Shown here one piece after another: positions 10,260-29,458 of a stretch of 64,000 nt of DNA; positions within the stretch are counted from its first letter, which is position 1; the number at the start of each line of letters is the position of its first letter. The translations under genes and the position numbers were made by a program. The stretch spans positions 1,302,001 through 1,366,000 of the forward strand of contig NZ_CP051514.1 of assembly GCF_012689525.1 (NCBI RefSeq), given 5' to 3'. The notes beneath the pieces are model-generated. The model saw only the letters and a list, made by a program, of their open reading frames with translations. It did not search any database and had not been told where the DNA came from. This DNA comes from Paraburkholderia aromaticivorans (GTDB lineage: Bacteria > Pseudomonadota > Gammaproteobacteria > Burkholderiales > Burkholderiaceae).

Positions 10260-11102
10260 GGCTCTGGCGCAAATAGCGCGGGGGCGAATCGGTTAAGGTG
10301 TCGGTCTGAACGAATTGAGAACCGCCGATGAGTAAGCTGAAGAGTCTGGAGGAACTGCTCGCGGGCCGTCATTTTGACCGCGATGTGATCATTCTGGGTG
10401 TTCGCTGGTACCTGCGCTACAAGCTTAGCCTGCGCGATCTGGTCGAAATGATGGCGGAACGGGGTCTGTCGCTGGCGCACACGACGATCCTTCGCTGGGT
10501 GCGTCGCTTTGCGCCGGAATTCGTCAAACGGTGGAACCGCTTTTGCAGGTCCACCGGCCAGTCGTGGCGTGTCGACGAGACTTACCTCAAGCTGCGCGGC
10601 AAGTGGGTCTATCTTTATTGGGCGGTGGATCGGGCTGGTCAGACGGTCGACTTCATGCTCAGCGCCAGGCGCGGCGTGAAGGCGGCAAAGGCGTTTTTCA
10701 GGAAGGCAATCAAACATCAAGGCCAGCCACTGAAGACTATCATGCTCGTTGGCTACGCCGCCTCGCACCGCGCCGTGCGCGAAATGAAGGCCGATGGCTT
10801 GCTGCCGGAGGACACGAAGGTCCGATCCTCGAAATATCTCAATAATATGGTCGAGCAGGACCACCGCAACATCAAGTCCCGGACGAAAGTCATGCTCGGC
10901 TTCAAACGTTTCCGGAACGCGGCGATCACTCTCTCCGGTATTGAACTGGTACAGCGTATTCGCAAGGGCCAATTCAGCCTCGCGAAACTCCGCCTCAAAG
11001 ATACCGCTGCGCCCGCAGTCAGGGTGGCCGTCCTGTCTGCCTGATCAGGTGTCCTTTATATAACAAAATATCTCGTCCATATCGCCTATTTGCACCAGAG
11101 CC
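10260..11102 (+). mobile_element. IS6-family insertion sequence, 843 bp, copy 1
   Basis: The ends are 17-base inverted repeats differing at one position: GGCTCTGGCGCAAATAG at 10260-10276 and the complement of GGCTCTGGTGCAAATAG at 11086-11102. The element contains one DDE transposase. The eight bases on each side (GGCACGCG and TATGGTAG) differ, so there is no target duplication. That suggests a deletion next to the element or cointegrate resolution after insertion. Confidence 0.9.
10328..11044 (+). CDS. IS6-family transposase with a mutated catalytic Asp
   Basis: A 238-residue IS26-like transposase. The first catalytic Asp ([10 protein letters not shown]) and the Glu (NNMVEQDHR) are present. 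The second Asp, in the block that reads TLDGYAASH in the copy at 34279-34761, is Val here ([10 protein letters not shown], codon GTT for GAT). [11 protein letters not shown] in place of [10 protein letters not shown] is a further change. The element is therefore probably unable to move by itself. A helix-turn-helix lies at the N-terminus ([14 protein letters not shown]). Confidence 0.9.
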
Positions 11103-16756: not shown

Positions 16757-16812
16757 GGTTTTGTCGCGATAAGGAAGACGAGTCAAACAAATGTCGATAT
16801 GATGAGGACTAC

Positions 16813-16989
16813 TCATGCGACCAAAGAGTAGAACTGTTGGGCGGGAGTTTGCGCGATGCCCCCGTCCTTCATCTGGCCTTTGACGATCATGTGCATGAAC
16901 TCGCTGCCGCCAAGAATGATGCGTGCACAACGAAAATTCTTGAAGCCCAGCATCGGTCGGGTGCGACGCTTGATGGCACGGTGGTCCTG
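16813..16989 (-). pseudogene. IS6 transposase, C-terminal exon after the group II intron
   Basis: The frame reads QDHRAIKRRTRPMLGFKNF, then ARIILGGSEFMHMIVKGQMK, and ends AQQFYSLVA. It continues exactly from the codon for Glu at 26784 once the intron is removed. The 177 bases here and 543 bases upstream sum to 720 (240 codons). If the intron still splices, a complete transposase mRNA could in principle form, but the intron protein is itself broken. Confidence 0.85.
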
Positions 16990-17064
16990 GTCGGGTAGCA
17001 GCAGCGCATTGCTGCGCTGCTGCCCCCTAAGAACCGTACGTGCGCCTTTAGGAGCATACGGCTC
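16990..17064 (-). ncRNA. Group II intron domains V and VI with 3' splice site
   Basis: Positions 17031-17064 read on the minus strand as a classical 34-base domain V, starting GAGCCGTATG (with the catalytic AGC) and ending GTACGGTTC. Domain VI is the hairpin at about 16993-17028 (arms rich in GCAGCAGCGC / GCGCTGCTGC), with an unpaired A near the 3' side as the likely branch point. The intron ends at 16990. Confidence 0.88.
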
Positions 17065-17106
17065 AAGCCTCTGCAAAGGCATCTGTCGACACCCGGTAGT
17101 ACAACT

Positions 17107-18060
17107 TCATTTTCCGGCGTACTGTGGATTTCTACGGCAATTGAGATGGTTAACCTGGAGGTTGCTTGCTGCATCCGTGCCGCCGTCAGTTTGCTTCACA
17201 ATATGCGTAACATCCCAGCGGGTGTTCATTGTGATGGGCTGCTGACAGTTGGAACACATGCCATCTTGCCTTACCCAGACACGGTACAGCTTACGGCGAC
17301 CGCGCGTCGAGTTCAGTATCTTCTGGCCCCATCGGGATTCGAAGTATGGTGCCCATTGCGGATCGTGCGGATTTGCGCCCGCTCGGATCTTGATGTGCCG
17401 TTTTATTGGCGTGTCCGATTCCTTCAGCAAGGTGACCTCTCTTGTCGTGCCATCCTCTTTTTTTTCTGTGGCGGCAAATACCCAGTCCCGCAGACCTTTG
17501 GCCCTGAAGTATTTGCTTTTTATCCATGGGGCGCCTTTTTTGGGGTGCCTTCTGGCCGCCCATCGCCATAGCATTGACCAGACCTCGTGATCAACCCGAT
17601 CGAAGGCTTTCTTGGCGACGACATGGCTATGGTAATTCGCCCATCCTCGTAAAACAGGATTGAGCAGCTTTACCAGGTTCGCCTGTTTAGCCGTCTTGTT
17701 GGCCTTGATGATTTCACGAATTTTGTCAAGATGTGCCTTGACGTTCGCTTTCGACGGCTTCATCAATAGCTTGCCGTTGTACTTGCGAATGTTCCATCCG
17801 AGGAAATCAAACCCATCCTTGATGTGCGTTATCCTGGTCTTTTCTGGTGATAGGACCAGCCCGCGTTCCGCCAGGAATTCAGCTACTGCCGGCCTGACTT
17901 CATGTTCCAGCCACTCCTTCGAGTGGCCGGTAATAATGAAGTCGTCCGCGTAACGCACCATGTTCATTTTCAGTCCTCTCTGCTTCGCTCGCGGGAATTT
18001 TTCCGCGAGCATAGCTTCGAGGCCATCGAGCGTCATGTTGGCTGCCACCGGGGAAATAGC
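17107..18060 (-). pseudogene. Group II intron protein, C-terminal piece (RT, maturase, HNH)
   Basis: 317 codons, from AISPVAANMTLDGLE after the first cut to the stop at 17107. It contains the RT active site MVRYADDFIITGHS, the thumb and maturase (X) domain (NPVLRGWANYHSHVVAKKAF), and an HNH endonuclease at the end: MCSNCQQPI ... THIVKQTDGG ... NHLNCRRNP. This is the LtrA-type multi-domain protein that splices and inserts the intron. Joined to the middle piece at PQGG/AISP, the polymerase motif PQGGAISP is restored in frame. Confidence 0.9.
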
Positions 18061-20077
18061 TCCGCCAACAACATAGCAAACTCGCGAGTAAAATGGGGTC
18101 TGCGCATTTCAAGGGAGTGTCTGGCGCCGTGGTCCAGAGGATGTCCTGACGTCGATGCGGTTCTCGTCCTTGAGACCATCGCTCCCGCGGACAGGGAGGC
18201 GCGACAATGACCCGAGGACGACGTAAGAACTGGCGTGTCCGTCTTGCCTTTGAACCGAACCGATATGCCGGCGAACAGCTGCAGAAGGCGTACGAGCAGC
18301 TCAGTCCGATAGATTCACGCGCTACGGCACAGCCATCCGCTGTTCGGCCCGTGGAGACACGGCGAGCGGCTATCAAGCGAGGTAAGCGATGAGCAACGCT
18401 GCAATGGTCGCGCTCTACGCGCGGGTGTCCTCCGAACAACAGACCAAACGCGGCACCATTGAAAGCCAGATTGCCGCGCTGAGGGAGCGCATTGCGGCTG
18501 ACGATGCGCAGCTTGTCGACGACATGTGCTTCATAGACGCCGGGATAAGCGGCGCGACGCTGATCAGACCGCAGCTAGAGCGACTCAGGGATCGTGCTGC
18601 ACTCGGGCTGGTTGATCGGCTGTACATCCTGTCTCCCGACCGGCTGGCGCGCAAGTATGCACACCAGGCATTGCTGATGGAGGAGTTCTCTGCGTGTGGC
18701 GTGCAGGTGGTGTTTCTCAATCATGAGATTGGCACGACACCGGAAGAGTCGCTGCTGTTGCAGATGCAGGGCATGATTTCGGAGTACGAACGGGCAAAGA
18801 TCACCGAGCGTAATCGACGCGGTAAGCTTCATGGCGCAAAGCGTGGAAGCGTGAATGTGCTATCAACGGCTCCCTATGGTTACCGTTATATCCGCAAGCA
18901 GCTCGATGGGACACCGGCCCAGTACGTGATTGAACTGCCGCAGGCGGCGACGGTAAAGACTATCTTCCAGTGGATCGGGATGGACCGGCTGAGCATAGGC
19001 GAAGTGGTTCGTCGTCTTGCCGAGGCGGGCACGGTGACGGCATCCGGCAAGCTGTACTGGGACCGTAGTGTGGTATGGGGAATATTGCGTAATCCCGCTT
19101 ACATGGGGCGAGCGGCATTCGGTAAAACCCAGTCTCGTGATCGCCTGCCGCATGTCCGCGTGCGTACCCAACGCCACAGCGCCGAAGTGCCCAGGAGGAC
19201 ATACTCGACAACAAGCACAGACCCGCAGCAGTGGATCGAAATCCCGGTGCCGGCGATTGTCAGCGAAGTGATGTTCCATTCAGTCCAGGAGCAGCTTGCC
19301 GAGAATCGCAAGCTGGCGCGCCAACGCCGCCAGAACGCGCCGCTCTACCTGCTTCAGGGGCTGACTGTTTGTGGGCAATGCCGTTACGCGTACTACGGCA
19401 AGAAAATCAGCAAGGCGGCGGCCAAGGGGCATCAGCGAGATTATGCTTATTACCGCTGTGTCGGAACCGATGCCTATCGCTTCGGTGGTCAACGCATCTG
19501 CGACAACCTGCAAGTGCGAACGGATCGGCTCGATGACCTCGTATGGCAGCAGGTCGCGGATCTGTTGAGGCATCCAGGTCGGCTGAAGAAAGAATACGAA
19601 CGACGACTGGAGACGATGGAACGCAATGAAAAGAGTGGCTTCGACACAGCCAGCCTGGAAAAGCAAAGGTTTCAGTTGGAGAAAGGCAAGTCGCGGCTCA
19701 TCGACAGCTATGCCGACGGTATCATCGACAGGACGGACTTCGAGCCGAAGATACAGCAGTTGAAGAACCGGCTAGAGCAGGTCGATCAGCAGATCCAGGA
19801 ATCCCGGCAGCACGGGGTGGCTCAAAGTGAACTGTTTCTGGTCATCAACCGGCTGGAGGAATTTGCAAGTGCCGTTACGGACAAACTCGCTACGATCGAT
19901 CTCGAAACGAAGCGCAAGATCGTACTGGCTCTGGTCAAGCGTGTCGAAATCCACAAGGATGAAATCCTCGTCGTATTCCGGATCGATCCGCAGCCCGGAG
20001 GTCTTCTCGCAGGCGAGAATTCGAATGATTCAGACGATGGAGTGAAAAGTATGCAACATTGTAGGCGGCGTAATAAT
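18061..20077 (+). mobile_element. Serine-recombinase element b inside the intron RT gene
   Basis: 2017 bp bounded by a TCC direct repeat (18061-18063 and 20078-20080). Its removal restores PQGGAISP in the intron protein. It carries a small basic protein gene and a large serine recombinase, both on the plus strand, and no other cargo. No terminal inverted repeats are seen, as expected for serine-integrase elements that recombine at a 2-3 bp core. Confidence 0.82.
18207..18392 (+). CDS. Small basic protein encoded next to the recombinase
   Basis: 61 residues, strongly basic (MTRGRRKNWRVRL ... RRAAIKRGKR). The ATG overlaps a TGA at 18208-18210, and its own stop overlaps the ATG of the recombinase (ATGA at 18389-18392), so it is translationally coupled on both sides. 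Its position and charge suggest a DNA-binding accessory or directionality factor; no family is recognised. Confidence 0.65.
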   Translation: MTRGRRKNWRVRLAFEPNRYAGEQLQKAYEQLSPIDSRATAQPSAVRPVETRRAAIKRGKR

Positions 20078-20155
20078 TCCCCCTTGCGGGGTGCCGGCGT
20101 CAGTGGGGAAGAGTTCGTTTTGATACACGTATCCCGCTTTGAGCCACTTCTTTAG
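18389..20155 (+). CDS. Large serine recombinase of element b
   Basis: 588 residues as read in the integrated state. The N-terminal resolvase domain has the nucleophile region LYARVSSEQQTKRGTI and the DRLARKYAHQALL block. A recombinase domain follows (APYGYRYIRKQ), then a zinc-ribbon (LTVCGQCRYAYYGKK ... YYRCVGTD), then a long coiled coil near residues 400-500. The last 25 codons lie beyond the proposed element end (20077) in intron sequence, so the C-terminal tail is supplied by the target. In a circular form the frame would run instead into 49 codons at 18061-18207. Confidence 0.9.
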   Translation: MSNAAMVALYARVSSEQQTKRGTIESQIAALRERIAADDAQLVDDMCFIDAGISGATLIRPQLERLRDRAALGLVDRLYILSPDRLARKYAHQALLMEEFSACGVQVVFLNHEIGTTPEESLLLQMQGMISEYERAKITERNRRGKLHGAKRGSVNVLSTAPYGYRYIRKQLDGTPAQYVIELPQAATVKTIFQWIGMDRLSIGEVVRRLAEAGTVTASGKLYWDRSVVWGILRNPAYMGRAAFGKTQSRDRLPHVRVRTQRHSAEVPRRTYSTTSTDPQQWIEIPVPAIVSEVMFHSVQEQLAENRKLARQRRQNAPLYLLQGLTVCGQCRYAYYGKKISKAAAKGHQRDYAYYRCVGTDAYRFGGQRICDNLQVRTDRLDDLVWQQVADLLRHPGRLKKEYERRLETMERNEKSGFDTASLEKQRFQLEKGKSRLIDSYADGIIDRTDFEPKIQQLKNRLEQVDQQIQESRQHGVAQSELFLVINRLEEFASAVTDKLATIDLETKRKIVLALVKRVEIHKDEILVVFRIDPQPGGLLAGENSNDSDDGVKSMQHCRRRNNSPLRGAGVSGEEFVLIHVSRFEPLL

Positions 20156-20400
20156 AATCACCTTGTCCGTGGGGATATTGGCGATCATCCAGTCGTGGGA
20201 AATTTTGTCGAAACAGCCTTGGATGTCGGCCTCCAGCACCCATTCCGCACTCGCCTTTTTTGCCAGAGAAATGAAGCATTGTCCTCCAGCGTCAGCAGTA
20301 GAGCGTTCCGGTCTGAACCCATAAGAATTCAGATCGGCGGTGGTTTCCGCAACGGGTTCCAACGCCAGCAGATGTAACGCCTGCATGGCGCGGCATTTCA
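20078..20400 (-). pseudogene. Group II intron protein, middle piece (RT domain)
   Basis: 323 bases of the same reverse transcriptase: KCRAMQALHLLALEPVAE, then NSYGFRPERSTADAG, WVLEADIQGCFDKISHDW (RT motif with catalytic Asp), and GTPQGG at the cut by element b. Upstream it joins GIPTV of the N-terminal piece. With the other two pieces the total is 1653 bases, exactly 551 codons. Confidence 0.9.
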
Positions 20401-20445
20401 TCACGGGGACGGTTAGCGCGAACTGCACCAGCGCTCAACGAGTAT

Positions 20446-20733
20446 TTGGGATGGGCTGAGATCTGCCATCCATTCCATCCGTTAAAAGGTCAACGTTTTC
20501 CAGTACTGAAGACCCGGCGCGTCGGCGGGGTTGATACGCTGCTTCTGGGTCATGCAGAACGCGGCAGCTTCAGCATTGCCCGCGAATGGACCGACTGGGG
20601 CATGCCCTCTGTTCACGACGGTGCTGGCGTCACCGCGTGCCGCTTCGATCTGGACATGCTGCTAGAGCTGATCGACCTGATCGACCAGCTTGCCGTTTCG
20701 GCCTCGAAGAAGTCATCCACCAAAGGAGCTTGA
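20446..20733 (+). CDS. DUF5372-like small protein
   Basis: 95 residues from a TTG codon; the true start is uncertain. The core CHPFHPLKGQRFPVLKTRRV, then HAERGSFSIAREWTDWG, resembles small proteins annotated DUF5372 that sit at the head of recombinase operons in proteobacterial mobile elements. Function unknown. It begins 45 bases inside element a. Confidence 0.6.
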   Translation: MGWAEICHPFHPLKGQRFPVLKTRRVGGVDTLLLGHAERGSFSIAREWTDWGMPSVHDGAGVTACRFDLDMLLELIDLIDQLAVSASKKSSTKGA

Positions 20734-20785
20734 TCAATGGATATTCTTGACCTAGTATCAGACCAGTTAGATACGTGGTCTGATC

Positions 20786-21118
20786 ATGCAAGACACACCA
20801 TCGTCGACTTTGCGCAGGCGTCGTGCCCAGTTGCTGCGGCAAATGCCGGCTCTGGACACGCTGCTCAGGGGCTCGCTCATCGAGCGCTACAAGCGCTGCG
20901 GCAAACCTGGCTGCAAATGTGCCGACGGCCCCGGTCATGGCCCCAAGTATTACCTGTCGGTGAGTTTTCCCGGCCGCCGGCCACAAATGGACTACGTGCC
21001 GCAAGACGATTACGCCGACGTCACCGAGCGCCTGGCGAACTATCACCGGGTTCGCGAGATCATCGAGGAGATCTGCGAGATCAACCGCGAACTACTGCGC
21101 CGCCGCGAGGCGATCTAA
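20786..21118 (+). CDS. DUF6788-like protein
   Basis: 110 residues. A basic N-terminus is followed by a short cysteine pair in CGKPGCKCADGPGHGPKYYL, then YLSVSFPGRRPQMDYVP and a helical C-terminus. Proteins of this type usually accompany DUF5372 and a serine recombinase. A short frame from GTG 21128 (about 40 codons, SLTDCIDPHLAGVLIANMLE) that runs into the recombinase start may be a third small gene. Confidence 0.65.
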   Translation: MQDTPSSTLRRRRAQLLRQMPALDTLLRGSLIERYKRCGKPGCKCADGPGHGPKYYLSVSFPGRRPQMDYVPQDDYADVTERLANYHRVREIIEEICEINRELLRRREAI

Positions 21119-21251
21119 GGGACGTCGGTGAGCCAGACGCCATCGCTCACCGACTGCATCGATCCGCACCTGGCCGGCGTACTCATCGCCAACATGCTCG
21201 AGGCCTGGCTCACCGCCGGGTCCGCGCTGGAACCGAGTGAGGAGGCCGTCG

Positions 21252-21625
21252 ATGAACCCCAAGATCACCCCGCAACATCTGGGCAAGCCGGCGTACATTT
21301 ATATCCGCCAGTCGACGCAAGCCCAGGTGCTGCACCATCAGGAGAGCACCGAGCGCCAGTACGCGTTGAAGGACAAGGCGCTTGCATTGGGCTGGACCGA
21401 AACGGCGATCCGTACGCTGGACCGGGACCTCGGTCACTCGGGCGCGCAGATGACGGGCCGCGAGGACTTCAAGACGCTGGTGGCGGATGTCTCGATGGGG
21501 CAAGTGGGTGCAGTACTTGCCCTGGAGGTGTCACGCCTGGCACGCTCGAACCTGGACTGGCATCGCCTGCTCGAACTGTGTGCGCTCACTCATACCCTCG
21601 TGATCGATTCCGATGGTTGCTACGA
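21252..21625 (+). pseudogene. Serine recombinase of element a, N-terminal piece
   Basis: ATG 21252 is preceded by GAGGAGG (21238-21244). The piece carries the resolvase catalytic region AYIYIRQSTQAQVLHHQEST, LALEVSRLARSNLDWHRLLE, and stops at DSDGCYD where element c is inserted. The sequence resumes at 24101 with PGDFNDGLLLG. The restored gene would be 689 codons if one deleted base (see the C-terminal piece) is replaced. Confidence 0.88.
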
Positions 21626-21643
21626 TCGGTCATGTTGATGCCC

Positions 21644-23707
21644 TCATGTGTTTGCTCGCGGGGCGATAACGAGATGGTTTCGCACGCCCGATTTGAGCTC
21701 ATGGAGAGCGGATATGCTCTCCGGGGTATTGGGAAACAGGAAACGTTTGTCATGCGAATCGCGCTGGACACAGATGACGCCGTCGCGGATGCGTCGCTTG
21801 ATCCACGAGGTCGAAACCTGCAGGGATTGCGCGACATCGGCAACGGTCAACCATCCAGAGATGTGCCGCGCACGCATTGATCTGGCGTCGTGCAATACAC
21901 GATGACGCTGCCGGATGAGCTGTACGGTCCGTGCCGGGACATGGCTGCATCGGGCCGAGTGATACCCCTCCTGGGACAGTATTCCGGCTATTGTGGCATC
22001 GTCGATGCCCTGCCGGGCAAGTTCAAGCACGCGGGCTTCCATCTCGGCGCCCCTGGTGAGTGCCCGCGCGGCATGCACACGCGGCTCGACCTCCAGTTGG
22101 GAGATCTCACCACCTCGCCAGACAACACGGATTGCGATCCGATCACGCGTTACCCGGTGCAGGATCACTTTATCAATCAGGGAACGCAGCAGGGCCTTCT
22201 TGCTCTCGCGATTGACTTGCGGTCGCTGCCAGATTTCCGGTAGCTGGGTACCGAGCGCAAGAAAGTCATTTTGCTCTTCAGCACTGAGCGCCTCCGGTTT
22301 GCATGCCTCAACCTGATGACGGGCAAGCGCATCCTCCGCCTGTCGCAGTTCGCGCAGCGCCGTTTCCCACCGCCGTTCAAGCTCGGCAGCAATCAGACGG
22401 TTATCCGGATCGACGCGATTGTATTGGCGCTCGGCCAGGAGCGCCTGATAGCGTAGCCGTTCGACCTGCTGCACCTCTGCCCGGTTGGCGGCATCACGGG
22501 TCTGCTGTCTTGCATGGTTTGCACCCGCCCACGTTTCGAGCTCCGCGGGTCCAACTGCCGCGAGGAAGGCCTCCACGACCCGCGCATCAATAAGGTCAGC
22601 AGGGAGGTGCTGGCATAGTTGGCCACCCTGACTACGCAGCAGATAGTTACAGACGTACCTGTTCGCATTCTTGTACTGCACCGCCATCTTGTGACCGCAT
22701 TGCCCGCACCAGACGATGCCCTGGAGCACGGCTGCACCGTCGCGGGGTATCCCGCGCGTCTGGTTTCGCTGATATTCCGCATGGTTATCGCGCAACATGG
22801 CCTGGACCTGTTCGAAACGTTCCCAGTCGAGGTAGACAGGATAACGGTCTTTCACGACGATTTTCCATTCTGACATAGGACAGCGTTCTGTGATGAGCTT
22901 GCCGTTGGCATAAGTCGAATGGCACGACCGGGTTCGACCATAGACGAACGCACCCGCGTAGGCAGGATTCTTCAGAATCGCCGTGAGCATATTGGCCGTT
23001 GGTGAACGCCAGATGATGTCGCCAAACCGGTCGCGCCGCGGCAAGGTCAGCGCGTGATCGCGGAAGCGGCGCATTACTTTGCCCACCGACCCAAGACCCA
23101 GAAACGTCGTAAAGATCAGCGATACCCGATCCTGCACCTCCTGGTTCGGATCTTTATGCACCATGCCGTTGGTGTCGCGCTCGAGTCCTGCGGGTAGCAG
23201 CAACGCCAGTTCACCGCGCTTTGCCTTGTTCAGCAGTCCGGCCGTCAGGCGGCCACGCAGGGTGTGCAACTCGACCTCGGAAATCGTGCCCTTCAAACCC
23301 AGCAAAAGGCGTCCGTTCGCAGAACCCGGATCATATACGCCATCGCGATCGCCGATAAGACATTGGCGAAACCCACACAGATCCAGCAAGGGATACCAGT
23401 CCGTGCAATTACGTGCAAGCCGGGTTACTTCGTACGAGAGGATGATGCCGACCTCGCCCAGGGTCACGCGGGCAATCACATCCTTGAAGCCCTCACGATG
23501 CGAAAGCGTCGAGCCACTTAGGCCAAGATCCATGTCGACCACCTCGATATTCGCATCATCCCAGCCCAGATCGCTTGCCCGCTGGCGCAGCGCATACTGC
23601 AATCGCAGGCTTTCCTGATTGGTTACTACCTGGTTCGGAGTGGATTGCCTGATATAGATTATTGCCTTACGGCACAGATGTCGGGCCGTTACAAGTTCCG
23701 ATGTCAT
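21644..23707 (-). CDS. Large serine recombinase of element c
   Basis: 687 residues from ATG 23707, which overlaps the stop of the upstream small gene. The N-terminal domain contains IIYIRQSTPNQVVTNQESLR and SYEVTRLARNCTDW. The block equivalent to its own target reads DGVYDPGSANGRLLLGLKG. A zinc-ribbon follows (GIVWCGQCGHKMAV ... RYVCNYLLRSQGGQLCQ), and a C-terminal helix-turn-helix (WLTVADVAQSLQVSTSWIKR). It is homologous to the recombinase of element a that it interrupts. The gene appears intact. Confidence 0.92.
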   Translation of the reverse strand: MTSELVTARHLCRKAIIYIRQSTPNQVVTNQESLRLQYALRQRASDLGWDDANIEVVDMDLGLSGSTLSHREGFKDVIARVTLGEVGIILSYEVTRLARNCTDWYPLLDLCGFRQCLIGDRDGVYDPGSANGRLLLGLKGTISEVELHTLRGRLTAGLLNKAKRGELALLLPAGLERDTNGMVHKDPNQEVQDRVSLIFTTFLGLGSVGKVMRRFRDHALTLPRRDRFGDIIWRSPTANMLTAILKNPAYAGAFVYGRTRSCHSTYANGKLITERCPMSEWKIVVKDRYPVYLDWERFEQVQAMLRDNHAEYQRNQTRGIPRDGAAVLQGIVWCGQCGHKMAVQYKNANRYVCNYLLRSQGGQLCQHLPADLIDARVVEAFLAAVGPAELETWAGANHARQQTRDAANRAEVQQVERLRYQALLAERQYNRVDPDNRLIAAELERRWETALRELRQAEDALARHQVEACKPEALSAEEQNDFLALGTQLPEIWQRPQVNRESKKALLRSLIDKVILHRVTRDRIAIRVVWRGGEISQLEVEPRVHAARALTRGAEMEARVLELARQGIDDATIAGILSQEGYHSARCSHVPARTVQLIRQRHRVLHDARSMRARHISGWLTVADVAQSLQVSTSWIKRRIRDGVICVQRDSHDKRFLFPNTPESISALHELKSGVRNHLVIAPRANT

Positions 23708-23991
23708 GGCTTGTCCCTCGAGGCAGCAACCGTATTCTGTAAATCGCAATTCCCATCTATTATCAAGCACTCCTTATTTAAATAGAAGACTGATCCATGA
23801 TTTTCTGGTGACTCCAGCTCTCTGGCCACACGAACCAGTTCCCGGACGCTATCGGCCGATAGTTTGCTCGATGGTAGACGCTCAGACGTCGGACGGAGAG
23901 AAGTCGCCACCACCGGAATTTTTAACAGGACGTCGTCCCGATAAGCGACGGTGACTTGACCATATGCGCCGACCGTGGCCGCCGATGCCAC
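23704..23991 (-). CDS. Small protein upstream of the element c recombinase
   Basis: 95 residues (MASAATVGAYGQVTVAYRDD ...), coupled to the recombinase by an ATGA overlap. A strand-rich first half is followed by an amphipathic helix (SADSVRELVRVARELE). No family recognised; the position suggests a regulator or accessory factor of integration. Confidence 0.6.
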   Translation of the reverse strand: MASAATVGAYGQVTVAYRDDVLLKIPVVATSLRPTSERLPSSKLSADSVRELVRVARELESPENHGSVFYLNKECLIIDGNCDLQNTVAASRDKP

Positions 23992-24100
23992 GACAGCAAA
24001 GGTGCGGCCATACAGCGGATGGGCGGGATCAGTGACAGTTACCTGTTCCAGCCGCCCTGTTGGCAGCCGAACAGGGGTACCAAGATGTGTCCTCGTACGA

Positions 24101-25792
24101 CCCGGGCGACTTCAACGACGGCCTGCTTCTCGGTCTCAAAGGCACGATGGCTCAGGCCGAACTCCATTTTCTGCGCGGGCGCCTCCAGGGCGGCAAGCTC
24201 AACAAGGCGCAGAAGGGAGAGTTGCGCTTTCCGCTACCAGTCGGCCTGTGCTATGACGGTGAAGACCGCATCGTCCTGGATCCTGATGACGAAGTGCGCG
24301 GCGCCGTGCAACTGGTATTCCGTCTGTTCCGCGAAACCGGTAGTGCGTACGCTGTCGTCAAGCGGTTTGCCGAAGACGGGCTACGCTTTCCGAAGCGCGC
24401 CTACGGAGGAGCCTGGGCGGGCAAACTCATCTGGGGACGACTGAGTCACGGACGTGTGCTCGGATTGATCATGAATCCGTCGTATGCAGGCGTCTACGTC
24501 TTTGGGCGCTATCAGTACCGCCAGCGCATCACACCACAGGGAGAGGTGCTCAAGCGCGTGCAGCCGGTTCCGAAGACCGACTGGCGCGTCCATCTGCCCG
24601 GGCACCACGAAGGGTACATTACCCCGGAGGAGTTTGAGCAGAATCAGGCCCGCCTGGCGCGCAACCGGACGAACGGTGAAGGTACCTGTTGAGTGGCCCG
24701 GCGCGCGAAGGGCTCGCGTTGCTGCAGGGACTGCTGGTGTGCGCACGCTGTGGCCGGGCAATCACGGTACGCTACCAGGGTCACGGCGGCATCCGCCCGA
24801 TCTATCTGTGCAGCAAGCAGCGCCACCAAGGTTTGGCGACCAGGGATTGCGTGTATGTGCGCAGCGACCTGCTCGACAACGTGATCGGCGAAGCGGTGCT
24901 CACGGCGCTGCGCCCGGCCGAACTCGAACTCGCCGTCACGGCCCTGCAGGAGCTTGAGCAACGCGACCTCGCCATCATGCGTCAGTGGCACATGCGCATC
25001 GAGCGCGCCGAATACGAGACTGCCCTCGCCGAACGGCGCTACCAGGAGTGCGACCCCGCCAACCGGTTGGTCGCAGGCACCCTCGAACGACGCTGGAACG
25101 ACGCGTTGCTTCGTCTCGAATCGATCAGGACGGAAGCCACCCAATTCCAGAGCCAGAAGGCGCGCGTCGTCACGGCGGAGCAGAAGGCCCAGGTCCTCGC
25201 ATTGGCGCGCGATCTGCCACGCCTGTGGCGAGCTCCGACCACCCCGGCGAAGGAGCGCAAACGTATGCTGCGACTCCTCATCAAGGACATCACGGTGGAG
25301 AAATTGCTCGACCAACGGCAGCTCGTTCTGCATGTGCGCTGGCAAGGCGGTGCCTGCACCGACATCACTGTCAATCTGCCCAGGCCGGCTCCCGAAGCGA
25401 TACGTTGTCCGGCGGAAATCGTCGAGCAGGTCCGCAGACTGTCTCAGCAGCTGTCCGATCTGCAAATCGTCGCACACCTCAATCAGGAAGGGCTGCGCAG
25501 CCCCCATGGCAAGCCTTTTACGCTCGCCATGATCAAATGGATCCGCTACAAGTACGCCATTCCAGCGACTTGCCTGATACGCCCTGACGAACTCACCGTG
25601 CAGCAACTCGCCGGGCGCTTGCGGGTCAGCATGCACGTCGTCTATTACTGGATCGAGCGCCGTATCGTCGAAGCACGTAAGCTTGATGATCGGAGGGGGT
25701 GGTGGATTGCGCTGGACAGCACCAAGGAACAAGAACTTCGAGACTGGGTGCGTACTTCAGCGCATCTGAAGCCGCAACATTCCAACACTTAA
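24101..25792 (+). pseudogene. Serine recombinase of element a, C-terminal piece with frameshift
   Basis: It continues the recombinase domain (PGDFNDGLLLGLKGTMAQAE, NPSYAGVYVFGRYQYRQ), then meets TGA at 24690-24692 after NRTNGEGT. In the next frame the protein goes on without loss: LSGPAREGLALLQGLLVC with zinc-ribbon CARCGRAITVRY, a coiled coil, and a terminal helix-turn-helix (LTVQQLAGRLRVSMHVVYYW). One missing C near 24686 explains the shift (ACCTG for ACCCTG). Element a is thus immobilised both by element c and by this deletion. Confidence 0.88.
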
Positions 25793-25816
25793 CTGTGAGA
25801 GTGCATTATGAAACCA

Positions 25817-26192
25817 CCGTCGGTATGCCGAGCGGCCTCGTCTTGCCGTTTTTCTTCAGAATAAAAACTCTCCGAAGTGGAAGGGGCGAATAATCCCGCC
25901 TCTTCAACGACGCAATCGCGTTGGCCTTTGCCGCCGGTGTTTTCCACGTTACCTTGTCCACACCGGGGGTGTTCCTGCCTTTGTTTTCAGTCACCCGCTT
26001 CACGGCTAATGCACGGCCGCTGAACGAATGGGTCAGCAGCCATTGCAGTGCTTTCACCCTGTTATGGCGGCCGGCCTGTACCGCCTTCACCATACGCGAT
26101 TGCAGCCTCCTTACCTGACGTTGAACATCGGCCCAATTGATGCCGTTCCACGCCACGCCCGAAGGTGCACGCGCCCGTGTTGCTGCGCTCAT
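25817..26192 (-). pseudogene. Group II intron protein, N-terminal piece
   Basis: Starts at ATG 26192 with GGAAGGAAAGC upstream on the minus strand. It carries the N-terminal RT domain: INWADVQRQVRRLQSRMVKA, then GRNTPGVDKVTWKTPAAK and LPLRRVFILKKNGKTRPLGI. It ends at GIPTV where element a begins. Confidence 0.9.
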
Positions 26193-26783
26193 TTGCTTTC
26201 CTTCCGTTTGGATGGTTCTGCAAACTCTCTGGTGAGGAGAGACCACGAGGAAGTCTGCCCGCTGTCGCGTCGGGTGATGTTGCAACCCGTATCCCGTCCA
26301 TTACAGCCGGGCATTCGCTTTTTCCCCGATCCTGTGCCCGCACCGCCATGGGCAGACCTCGCAGCCTGCTGTCCCGAAGGGAGCGATACGGGGTTTCCAC
26401 GTTCCGCTTATGGAAGTACGTCGGGTTAGGTGCCTGCTCTGGGCCGGGAGGTATGCGGGTCACGAACGCGTAATCGAAAGACGCTGTTCCCACCTCCAGT
26501 ACCGTTTGGTTCGAGCGCAATAGCCATTTCCGCTCGTTCAACGTAACGACCCTACTGCAGATTCAAATGTTTTCACCATACCGACTATCTGGCACTCATC
26601 CGGCGTATGGCTGCCAGAAGGGTACGCCTCTCGCGATTGATACCCCGCGCCTTGCGGCGCTTCGTTACGTTGTCAGAGCCGCTCTTGATTCAGGCCCCTA
26701 GATTCACCGGGTGACACCGGTGGTTCTCTCCTTCGATACGGCGAGAAGGGAGAACAACTTCTGTAAGCGACCTCGTGTCGCAC
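26193..26783 (-). ncRNA. Group II intron 5' RNA (domains I-III and part of IV)
   Basis: 591 bases between the 5' splice site (GTGCGAC at 26783) and the start of the intron protein. No coding frame fits. This is the usual length and position of the structured 5' half of a bacterial group II intron. CAACGT in the 5' exon could pair with ACGTTG inside the intron as an IBS2/EBS2 contact; IBS1/EBS1 was not resolved. Confidence 0.75.
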
Positions 26784-27326
26784 TTCGACCACGTTGTTCA
26801 AATACTTGACTTGGCGAATCTTGATGGGCGTCTCGCGCTCGGCATTCACCGTATGAAGCGCGGCCAGATTGGAACCGCTCTTGTCGATGGTCACCGTCTC
26901 GGGCGAGCCGTTCTGACCGATTGCCTTCTCAAAAAACCGCCAGGCAGCAGCCTTGTCGCGCTTGGCTCTGAATAGAAAGTCGATGGTGTTGCCAGCCTTG
27001 TCCACGGCGCGATAGAGATATTTCCACGAGCCCTTGACCTTGATATAGGTTTCATCCATGCGCCAACTCCTGCCCACCGGGCGCTTGTGCTTGCGAAACA
27101 TCTTCTCGAACAACGGCACCAACTTGATGACCCAACGATGCACTGTTGAATGATCCACGCCAATGCCGCGCTCAGCCATCATCTCCGCAAGATTCCGAAG
27201 ACTTAGCGAATAGGCCACATACCACCGCACGCACAACGACATCACGTCCAGCGGATAGTGCAACCGCTGCAGCACCTTGGCAACGCCAGCAGCAAGGGCC
27301 GTTCGTGGTGTTGCAGTCTTCTTCAT
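26784..27326 (-). pseudogene. IS6 transposase, N-terminal exon before the group II intron
   Basis: 181 codons from ATG 27326 (MKKTATPRTALAAGV). The DDE residues are SWRMDETYIKV (first Asp), VTIDKSGSN (second Asp) and the Glu of LNNVVE, the very last codon before the intron. The helix-turn-helix (VDHSTVHRWVIKL) is intact. The intron insertion therefore falls directly after the catalytic Glu codon. Confidence 0.88.
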
Positions 27327-27390
27327 CGTGGGCCCAAGCAAAGTTTTGGCAACCCGAACTTTACTGCAGCATCGCTAATGCGACAAAACC

Positions 27391-28595: not shown

Positions 28596-29458
28596 GAGCG
28601 TGTTAGGAACTCTGAAGTACTGGCACCGCGTGAACGAGCATGAGCATTGCGAAGACCACGAAATGAAGCCCGGCAAGGGTTTCGGGTAGCCGCTCATAAT
28701 CACGTGCGAGACGACGGAAACAGTTGAGCCAGCCGAAGCTGCGCTCGACCACCCACCGCCGGGGTAGCAGTACAAAGCCCTTTTTCGCTTCCTCCAGCTT
28801 GATCACCTGCAGTTCAATGCCTTCGTCGAGTGCGGCCTGCGCTGGGTCCTTGCCCGTGTATCCCTGATCCGCAAATGCTATCTTGACGGTGTGTCCCGTT
28901 ACCTGCTGAACCTGACGTGCAAGCTCTGCTACTTGCGCGCGCTCCTGTTCATTGGCCGGTGTTACGTGCACCGCCAGCAACTGCCCCAGGGTGTCCACCG
29001 CAATGTGGACTTTGCTACCGCGTTTGCGCTTATAACCGTCATAGCCCGCGCGTGGACCACTCTCGCAGGTTGACTGTAGCGTGCGACCGTCCAGAATCAC
29101 GGCGCCGGGTTGTCCTTGCCGACCCTGCGCCACGCGTATCACCGAGCGCAAGTCGCAGACCATGTGCTCAAAGCAGCCTGCCTGTAACCAGCGTTGAGTT
29201 TGCTGATACACCAGCTCCCAAGGTGGGAAATCATGGGGCAGCATCCTCCAGGGCGCGCCGGCCTGAGCCATCCAGCGCAACGCATCGAACATGTCGCGCA
29301 GTTCGTATTTGCGCTGCGGCGCCGTGACGTCCATCAGCGTCAAATAGGGAGCCGCGAAGCTCCATTCTTCGCCGGATACATCGGTCGGATACCCTTTGCG
29401 GTCTGCTCTTCTCATCCCGCCAGGATACCAGGTCTCACACAAAGTGCCTAACACGCTC
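28596..29458 (-). mobile_element. IS5-family insertion sequence, 863 bp
   Basis: The inverted ends are GAGCGTGTTAGGAACT (28596-28611) and the complement of GAGCGTGTTAGGCACT (29443-29458), with a TA duplication outside. The single transposase gene is complete. The ends and the TA target resemble the IS427/IS402 side of the IS5 family. Confidence 0.9.
28603..29415 (-). CDS. IS5-family transposase, apparently intact
   Basis: 270 residues from ATG 29415 (MRRADRKGYPTDVSGEEW). An N-terminal DUF4096-like domain (LRWMAQAGAPWRMLPHDFPP) precedes the DDE domain: Asp in VILDGRTLQS, Asp in IAFADQGYTG and Glu in VVERSFGWLNCFRRL. The frame is open to 29454, but upstream codons lie in the terminal repeat. 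All motifs are present, so the element may be active. Confidence 0.92.
   Translation of the reverse strand: MRRADRKGYPTDVSGEEWSFAAPYLTLMDVTAPQRKYELRDMFDALRWMAQAGAPWRMLPHDFPPWELVYQQTQRWLQAGCFEHMVCDLRSVIRVAQGRQGQPGAVILDGRTLQSTCESGPRAGYDGYKRKRGSKVHIAVDTLGQLLAVHVTPANEQERAQVAELARQVQQVTGHTVKIAFADQGYTGKDPAQAALDEGIELQVIKLEEAKKGFVLLPRRWVVERSFGWLNCFRRLARDYERLPETLAGLHFVVFAMLMLVHAVPVLQSS

Follow-up and report, generated by a model that had tools for sequence, protein, structure and literature searches.

How do five mobile elements come to lie one inside another at a single locus? The question is raised by a stretch of Paraburkholderia aromaticivorans DNA of 64,000 nucleotides, hereafter the window (positions 1302001-1366000 of NZ_CP051514.1, in a genome of 10.84 Mb and 4 contigs). 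In the best matches, the 16S rRNA of this genome was 97.7% identical to that of Paraburkholderia sp. PGU19, 96.9% to Caballeronia and 96.2% to Burkholderia, as expected of a Paraburkholderia-like organism. Pfam and Rfam searches, together with alignments to intact relatives, revealed an IS6-family insertion sequence (IS) holding a group II intron, whose reverse transcriptase (RT) gene holds two further elements, b and a, with an element c inside the recombinase gene of a. A first-pass annotation had described the same five elements in the same order; every part that it named was detected by Pfam or Rfam, and its description is confirmed, the borders needing slight correction. It had also read the stack as systematic parasitism rather than chance, and this reading of targeting among mobile elements is supported by relatives, which point to motif targeting at all four joints. 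The answer that we consider very probable, based on sequence comparison, is that a, b and c are small serine-integrase elements, each from a lineage with its own target among the conserved codons of other mobile elements' genes.

The outermost element (16757..27390, minus strand) was assigned to the IS6 family from its DDE_Tnp_IS240 domain and its short terminal inverted repeats, GGTTTTGTCGC at both ends, the first beginning at 16757 and the last ending at 27390. No 8-bp target duplication was visible, the flanking 8-mers GTGGATCG and GTTCAATT being different; this duplication is often missing after replicative events. The transposase gene, on the minus strand, is divided into a piece of 543 nt (26784..27326; Pfam DDE domain at 26673-27341), which ends with the Glu codon of YLNNVVE, and a piece of 177 nt (16813..16989), which starts with QDHR. 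We take this Glu to be the catalytic residue, from its role in the DDE family. Joined as previously calculated, the two pieces amount to 720 nt, and their 239-aa product was 85% identical to the uninterrupted IS6 transposase of Caballeronia SBC1, with 5 gap positions near the end.

The group II intron (16990..26783, minus strand) starts with GTGCG directly 3' of this Glu codon and ends with CCGAC, followed by QDHR. It exhibited the features of a mobile group II intron: a ribozyme 5' part and a D5-D6 part (Rfam RF02012 and RF00029, with the 5' part at 26723-26592 and the 3' part at 17066-16990, both on the minus strand), GUGYG/AY ends and, between them, an RT-maturase gene that is twice interrupted. 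Three pieces of this gene were recognised by Pfam and by alignment of the joined protein, all on the minus strand: the RVT_N piece (25824..26192; domain at 25806-26285), the N half of RVT_1 (20076..20407; domain at 20030-20428), and the C half of RVT_1 with the maturase domain and a weak HNH match (17107..18058; RVT_1 and GIIM at 17107-18048). The joined RT comprised 550 aa and a stop, equal to the 1653 nt of the first-pass reconstruction, and gave a match of 549 aa, without gaps and with 77% identity, to the intact LtrA of Caballeronia SBC2.

Element b (18059..20075, plus strand) is 2017 bp long and lies in the PQGG/IISP motif of the RT; the bases AATA are common to both junctions (18055-18058 and 20072-20075), as observed by comparison with the empty sites of records L010 and L011, and copies of b occur elsewhere. 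Its recombinase is an intact open reading frame (ORF; 18389..20155, plus strand, matched by Pfam Resolvase, Recombinase and Zn_ribbon_recom over 18389-20155), with 562 codons within the element and the final 26 codons reading into the RT gene. Element a (20408..25823, plus strand) lies in the LGIP motif of the same RT with a core GG, and measures 5416 bp with c and 2941 bp without it; its borders follow from the empty sites of L010 and L011 and from the attachment sites (att) at its two ends, attL and attR. The genes of a, all on the plus strand, start with a small ORF (20446..20733), located where a Cupriavidus copy has its DUF5372 gene (DNA alignment to L008, the Pfam match being on the L008 ORF), and a DUF6788 protein (20786..21118; PF20586, E 9.6e-35). 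The recombinase gene follows in parts, one before c (21237..21622; Pfam Resolvase 1-96 of 145) and one after c (24098..25792; Recombinase and Zn_ribbon_recom), the latter in two frames with a break near 24690 (tblastn frames 1 and 3); Pfam covered the split protein at 21237-21638, 24060-24692 and 24689-25792. Element c (21623..24097, minus strand), of 2475 bp and with a core TA, lies in the DGxY(D/N)P motif of this recombinase, according to the empty sites of L008, L009 and L012 and a third copy in L168. Its own recombinase (21644..23707, minus strand) is an intact ORF, open upstream to 23770, with Pfam Resolvase, Recombinase and zinc ribbon matches over 21644-23770. The architecture of large serine recombinases, with Resolvase, Recombinase and zinc ribbon domains, was thus intact in b and c and present in pieces in a, for which intact relatives were aligned.

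Borders given previously needed small changes. Those of b (18061-20077) were 2 nt off and those of a (20401-25816) 7 nt off, with the length of 5416 correct, and the limits proposed for c (21626-24100) are equivalent to ours within the common TACGA. The frame break in the a recombinase, near residue 320 and present even after removal of c, was absent from the first-pass annotation, which had named beforehand the empty sites as the place where its scheme could fail. The predicted junctions were found in relatives lacking a and b, lacking c, or lacking the intron. The intron is free of a and b in SBC2 and in PGU19, where the RT frame is broken by 1 nt close to the b site; a is free of c in Cupriavidus P-10, P. 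phymatum and PGU19.

To describe the targets of a, we kept 80 of the 166 loci confirmed in a genome scan and performed a second scan of 299 Burkholderiaceae genomes (E 1e-20), 42 of which contained matches. Loci around the recombinases were scanned with an RT profile, giving 97 A-type records for 93 loci; some recombinases, being in pieces, count twice in this set, which also includes a few loci that nearly duplicate one another. Both RT halves were found to break at profile positions 112-128, i.e. at LGIP, in 19 of the 97 records, as well as in the window and in L169, and 9 more records had one RT half with the same break. A break at about position 190 was observed with both halves in 3 records and with a single half in 1; the rest were mostly from other lineages, with other or unknown targets. 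Host RTs were divergent: those with enough sequence (23 of the 30 LGIP loci) formed 17 clusters at 80% and 10 at 60% identity, and the usable two-sided ones (19 of 21) formed 14 and 8 clusters, respectively. Record titles included Cupriavidus, Paraburkholderia, Caballeronia, Glomeribacter and Neorhodopirellula (one-sided), and metagenome bins of Acidobacteriaceae, Planctomycetales, Hydrogenedentota, Dormibacteraeota, Wolbachia and Bacillota, bin names being uncertain for short contigs.

Pattern matching made the element ends readable at 11 of the 19 loci tried. The attP of a was nearly constant (CACCGTC-GG-GACGGT), with arms symmetric about the 2-bp core, and attB varied. Across the joint, attB read in frame as L-G-(I/V)-P in 8 of the 11 readable loci, for example GKTRPLGIPV, GEFRNLGIPS, GGTRKLGIPT, GGTRKLGVPT and KGRRPLGIPA, among others. 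A single orientation was observed in all 11 two-sided close relatives of a, which have the asymmetric core GG. Without c, all 9 copies measured were 2937-2955 bp long and shared their att ends, and the annotated copies L008 and L009 hold only three genes between their ends. Iterated profiles detected DUF5372-like ORFs upstream of the recombinase in 48 of the 97 A-type records and DUF6788 in 21; the corresponding proteins of a are candidate accessory or directionality factors. The upstream ORF of c was matched by the iterated DUF5372-type profile but gave no Pfam match, and we therefore make no DUF5372 claim for c.

Relatives of b were associated with the second RT motif. Among the 24 B-type records, window included, both RT halves break at about positions 232-274 (PQGG/SP) in 17 and one half does so in 4; one record is ambiguous (L120, flanked by RT fragments that point in opposite directions) and 2 are elsewhere. 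The 17 two-sided records were divided between 9 along and 8 against the RT direction. Moreover, 5 of 41 plasmid records were examined, and the three relatives with 77-84% identity, from Cupriavidus KK10, Pseudomonas putida pWW53 and Stutzerimonas, all lie in an RT at PQGG. The arms of b appeared symmetric by eye, with the crossover within the common AATA, and end motifs were found in 3 of the 12 b loci tried. The core dinucleotide, sought across b copies, was not settled, since the L170 copy does not have the same two bases.

Element c was found in another serine recombinase at one motif, DGxY(D/N)P, at 7 loci: the window, L168 and five relatives of about 70% identity. These five, from Mesorhizobium, Rhizobium, Rhodovastum and Sinorhizobium plasmids (8 of 423 plasmid records were examined), all interrupt a recombinase, the first half of which runs to profile 123-125. 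The second half starts at 121-122 in four of them; in L229, where the first half ends at 124, the recognised part starts at 217. Pfam Resolvase was cut at 90-92 of its 145 positions in L168, L229 and L230; in L168 and L230, the rest of the domain was matched across the element, with a score below cut-off. Both orientations were seen around the palindromic core TA, the arms of c being weakly symmetric. Orientation seems to fit the symmetry of the core both in c and in the close relatives of a.

The intron appeared to follow a comparable rule. Its 5' end (224 nt) was matched in 5 of the 299 genomes, at 7 places, and the KYxxNxxE motif of an IS6 transposase precedes the intron in 6 of 6 readable 5' junctions (five of these places, window included, and PGU19); the remaining two places are without the intron start. 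At the ends read in more distant introns (SBC2, P. fungorum and contig C3 of the genome), there was no IS6 sequence. The intron of the stack is of a lineage whose members sit directly behind the codon for the catalytic Glu in IS6 transposase genes, and the same site in several IS6 genes is consistent with retrohoming. No other RT of this lineage was found in the genome, the next one, on contig C3, being 52-62% identical over its later pieces; with its own maturase gene broken, the intron, which carries 7.4 kb of nested elements, is predicted to be spliced little or not at all. A second partial intron 5' end, 90% identical, was also observed after the Glu codon of an IS6 transposase with stops (G000:C2:658127-658306, L226).

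Further copies of the elements were found in the same genome, with numbers that are lower bounds because the searches scored only the best 3 or 4 candidates per genome. A second copy of a with c inside, a{c}, is 99.9% identical and 1 nt longer (L169) and lies on contig C3 in a different group II RT at LGI/P, the RT pieces after the element being 52-62% identical to the window RT. Another copy of c (L168, 99.96%) lies in opposite orientation in another serine recombinase at DGV/YNP, and another copy of b (99.5%) in another group II RT at PQGG. Stacking was also observed elsewhere, one RT holding two serine-recombinase elements in Rhizobium terrae (L078), in an Acetobacteraceae bin (L098) and in Pseudomonas putida pWW53 (L237), where a b-type element occupies PQGG of the group II RT between xylS and benABC, with an a-type element farther upstream. 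In Ktedonobacter (L090), an RT has two elements, with the a-type joint seen on one side only. A Chloroflexi metagenome contig (L085) exhibited a b-type element at PQGG, the RT middle piece and an a-type element beside the LGIP end, in the order of the window, and appears to hold the same pair.

Outside RT and recombinase genes, other members of the a/c clade were found in transposition genes. With both halves matched, the IS21 gene IstA is split in L184 and L188, and IstB, at its Walker A motif, in L096, L195, L196, L197 and L206. An IS4-type transposase is interrupted in L084 (a Pfam match to one half, and a frame that continues through the joint) and, judging by the spanning frame, in L083 and L107; an IS66 transposase in L198 (one half by Pfam and a spanning frame); IS66 TnpB in L193 (one half); and IS3 targets in L105, L199 and L201 (one half each). 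The labels ISL3 (L070), IS5 (L074) and IS630 (L103) and the targets of L069 and L071 were held weak because the transposase may merely adjoin the element; L070, L074 and L103 were still used in the tree described below.

This tree comprised 76 recombinases and 14 target labels, after L169, L072, L073, L186, L043, L049 and L206 (duplicates or broken) and records with fewer than 540 profile positions had been dropped. Target labels changed 16 times on it (minimum 13), versus a mean of 27.4 when shuffled, with none of 200 shuffles as low, a contrast that is inflated by near-copies. In the clade of a, 25 of the 28 rows were labelled RT LGIP; the RT-190 and IstB labels were each observed at three places.

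How the stack might have formed can be set out as follows. Elements a, b and c would be small autonomous site-specific elements with one large serine recombinase each, to which a-type elements add one or two small proteins. An attP on the excised circle would recombine with attB by the serine-integrase reaction, and attB would lie in another mobile element's gene, as a short conserved coding motif: LGIP of group II intron RTs for a, PQGG-(I/V)(I/V)-SP of the same RTs for b, DGxY(D/N)P of other serine recombinases for c, and conserved motifs of IS transposase genes for distant relatives of a and c. A target conserved for its function would be present in many divergent, multi-copy genes that the host can dispense with. 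Because the motif is fixed by protein function in such genes, sites would be plentiful and cheap; an element using them would nearly always find one free, cost the cell little and travel with its carrier. The sequences themselves show the junctions, the symmetric att arms of a, the empty sites, additional copies within the genome and the clade-wise choice of target, whereas the chemistry of integration and excision, including circle excision and double-strand exchange, is inferred, as are present activity and this fitness argument.

Several observations weigh against this explanation. At LGIP loci, L053 has the core AG and lacks an RT to its right, L169 reads in frame only with one base fewer in the G run, L046 lacks one flank, and the opposite orientation was observed in 3 of the 8 more distant two-sided loci (L057, L061 and L065); for those loci that are short metagenome contigs, the organism may be misnamed. 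The distant b relatives L239 and L240 (44-47% identical) lie outside RT and recombinase genes, the distant B-type record L118 is without an RT, and a 99.85% identical copy of b in the genome (L170:5158-7175) lies in no recognised mobile gene, with no RT recognised, possibly at a pseudo-site. Relatives of c at 53-57% identity (L233-L235) are without a split recombinase. On the tree, L066, L074 and L080 fall in the clade of a without an RT label, the weak IS5 label of L074 thus sitting among RT-LGIP records; 22 of the 76 recombinases are without a label and several labels come from one half. A relative in the IS3 clade (L200) splits a DNA polymerase III alpha (DnaE2-like) gene, with both halves matched. 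Finally, a itself, with its frameshift and with c, is unable to move by its own enzyme, yet the broken form occupies two sites. The frame break is common to both copies of a{c}, and no intact a was found among the 3 matches in the genome (best 3 of 39 candidates scored); it must therefore be assumed that a{c} was either mobilised in trans or decayed very recently.

Chance stacking was rejected because relatives of each element occupy one and the same codon position in divergent genes. The same observation bears on survivorship, i.e. on recombinases that integrate fairly freely and are seen only where they hit dispensable mobile genes. Such genes are indeed multi-copy and dispensable, and insertions outside them exist (L170 and L200); however, the crossover falls at one codon position in genes that differ in about 70% of their residues, and each clade has its own position, whereas free insertion would spread along dispensable genes. 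Contradicted by this site precision, survivorship is in our view very unlikely. A different account is that hosts keep the elements as domesticated switches that silence IS elements and introns, like the skin or fdxN excision elements. Removal of b, c or a{c} does restore RT or recombinase reading frames, and among NCBIfam models XisF, the recombinase of fdxN excision, comes closest to a and c, though well below cut-off: scores of 66.2, 80.8 and 113.3 bits were obtained for the three recombinases against the XisF equivalog NF041201, below its cut-off of 375 bits. Copies are nevertheless repeated within one genome and patchy (42 and 10 of the 299 family genomes), the host genes are themselves selfish elements, and regulated excision is hypothetical, so that domestication, too, has little probability.

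That a, b and c are larger phages or integrative and conjugative elements (ICEs) after cargo loss is the least probable account, close to negligible. Recombinases of this type are indeed typical of phages and ICEs, but in all nine copies measured a without c stays within 2937-2955 bp and has the same att ends, and L008 and L009 hold only three genes; for a, a prophage or ICE remnant is disfavoured because of this constant, compact length. Specialisation of each lineage on conserved codons of other mobile elements is thus the explanation that we retain. A broader version, which we find fairly likely, would see a whole class of hyperparasitic serine recombinases, with one mobile-gene motif per lineage, targets switching along the tree and self-stacking chains that limit the spread of IS elements and introns. 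Targets of this class would be RT LGIP, RT about 190, RT PQGG, recombinase DGxYDP, IstA, IstB Walker A, IS4, IS66 and, probably, IS3, and the chains would include a recombinase element preying on recombinase elements of its own clade.

Two other transposase genes were observed in the window. An uninterrupted IS6-type transposase ORF of another subtype is located at 10328-11044. An IS5-type transposase ORF (28603-29454) adjoins the stack, and like places in plasmids are annotated as IS5.

If the explanation is true, bacterial mobile elements have specialised, stacking parasites of their own, which recognise functional codons, as homing endonucleases likewise do. They would offer a natural series of recombinases with attB sites shaped by the genetic code across many targets, which would make specificity change in large serine recombinases directly testable, and they might be of use as integrases of known target. 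Insertion by such elements is also suggested as an overlooked route of IS and intron inactivation. The novelty would lie in how systematically these lineages specialise on motifs conserved in other mobile elements; the elements are not categorically new, because their enzymes are ordinary large serine recombinases, which are already known. Twintrons offer a likeness in their nesting.

Among described systems, the closest in target choice are recombinases from a survey of large serine recombinases, which, in the portion of that paper available to us, reports different recombinases targeting one conserved coding site, in genes for a magnesium chelatase/protease, a prolyl isomerase or competence (PMC10083194, Durrant et al. 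2022). A conserved site within coding sequence is targeted in both cases; however, the targets named in that portion are host genes, whereas here they are conserved motifs of mobile-element genes, and its main text never uses the terms 'group II', 'reverse transcriptase' or 'insertion sequence'. Nothing found in the part of the open-licence PMC literature that was available described serine-recombinase elements within the RT genes of group II introns or within transposase motifs. The intron RmInt1 resides in the transposase gene of ISRm2011-2, and its splicing is needed for expression of that IS (PMC4238363). The intron studied here likewise resides in an IS transposase gene, but the host of RmInt1 belongs to the IS630-Tc1 family, whereas ours is an IS6 element entered after the catalytic Glu; moreover, nested serine-recombinase elements are present here and are not mentioned in the accessible part of that report. 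Elements of the XisF/fdxN and skin type share with a, b and c a serine recombinase and a position in a conserved gene that is restored by excision (PMC4853749, as far as its available text goes), but differ in target and in the compact size of the present elements, and the recombinases here score 66-113 bits versus the XisF cut-off of 375. IStrons, as described in the available part of PMC4227781, resemble the stack in combining a ribozyme element with a DNA element; an IStron, however, is a group I intron and an IS joined in one unit, whereas here separate elements would each integrate into a motif of the next one.

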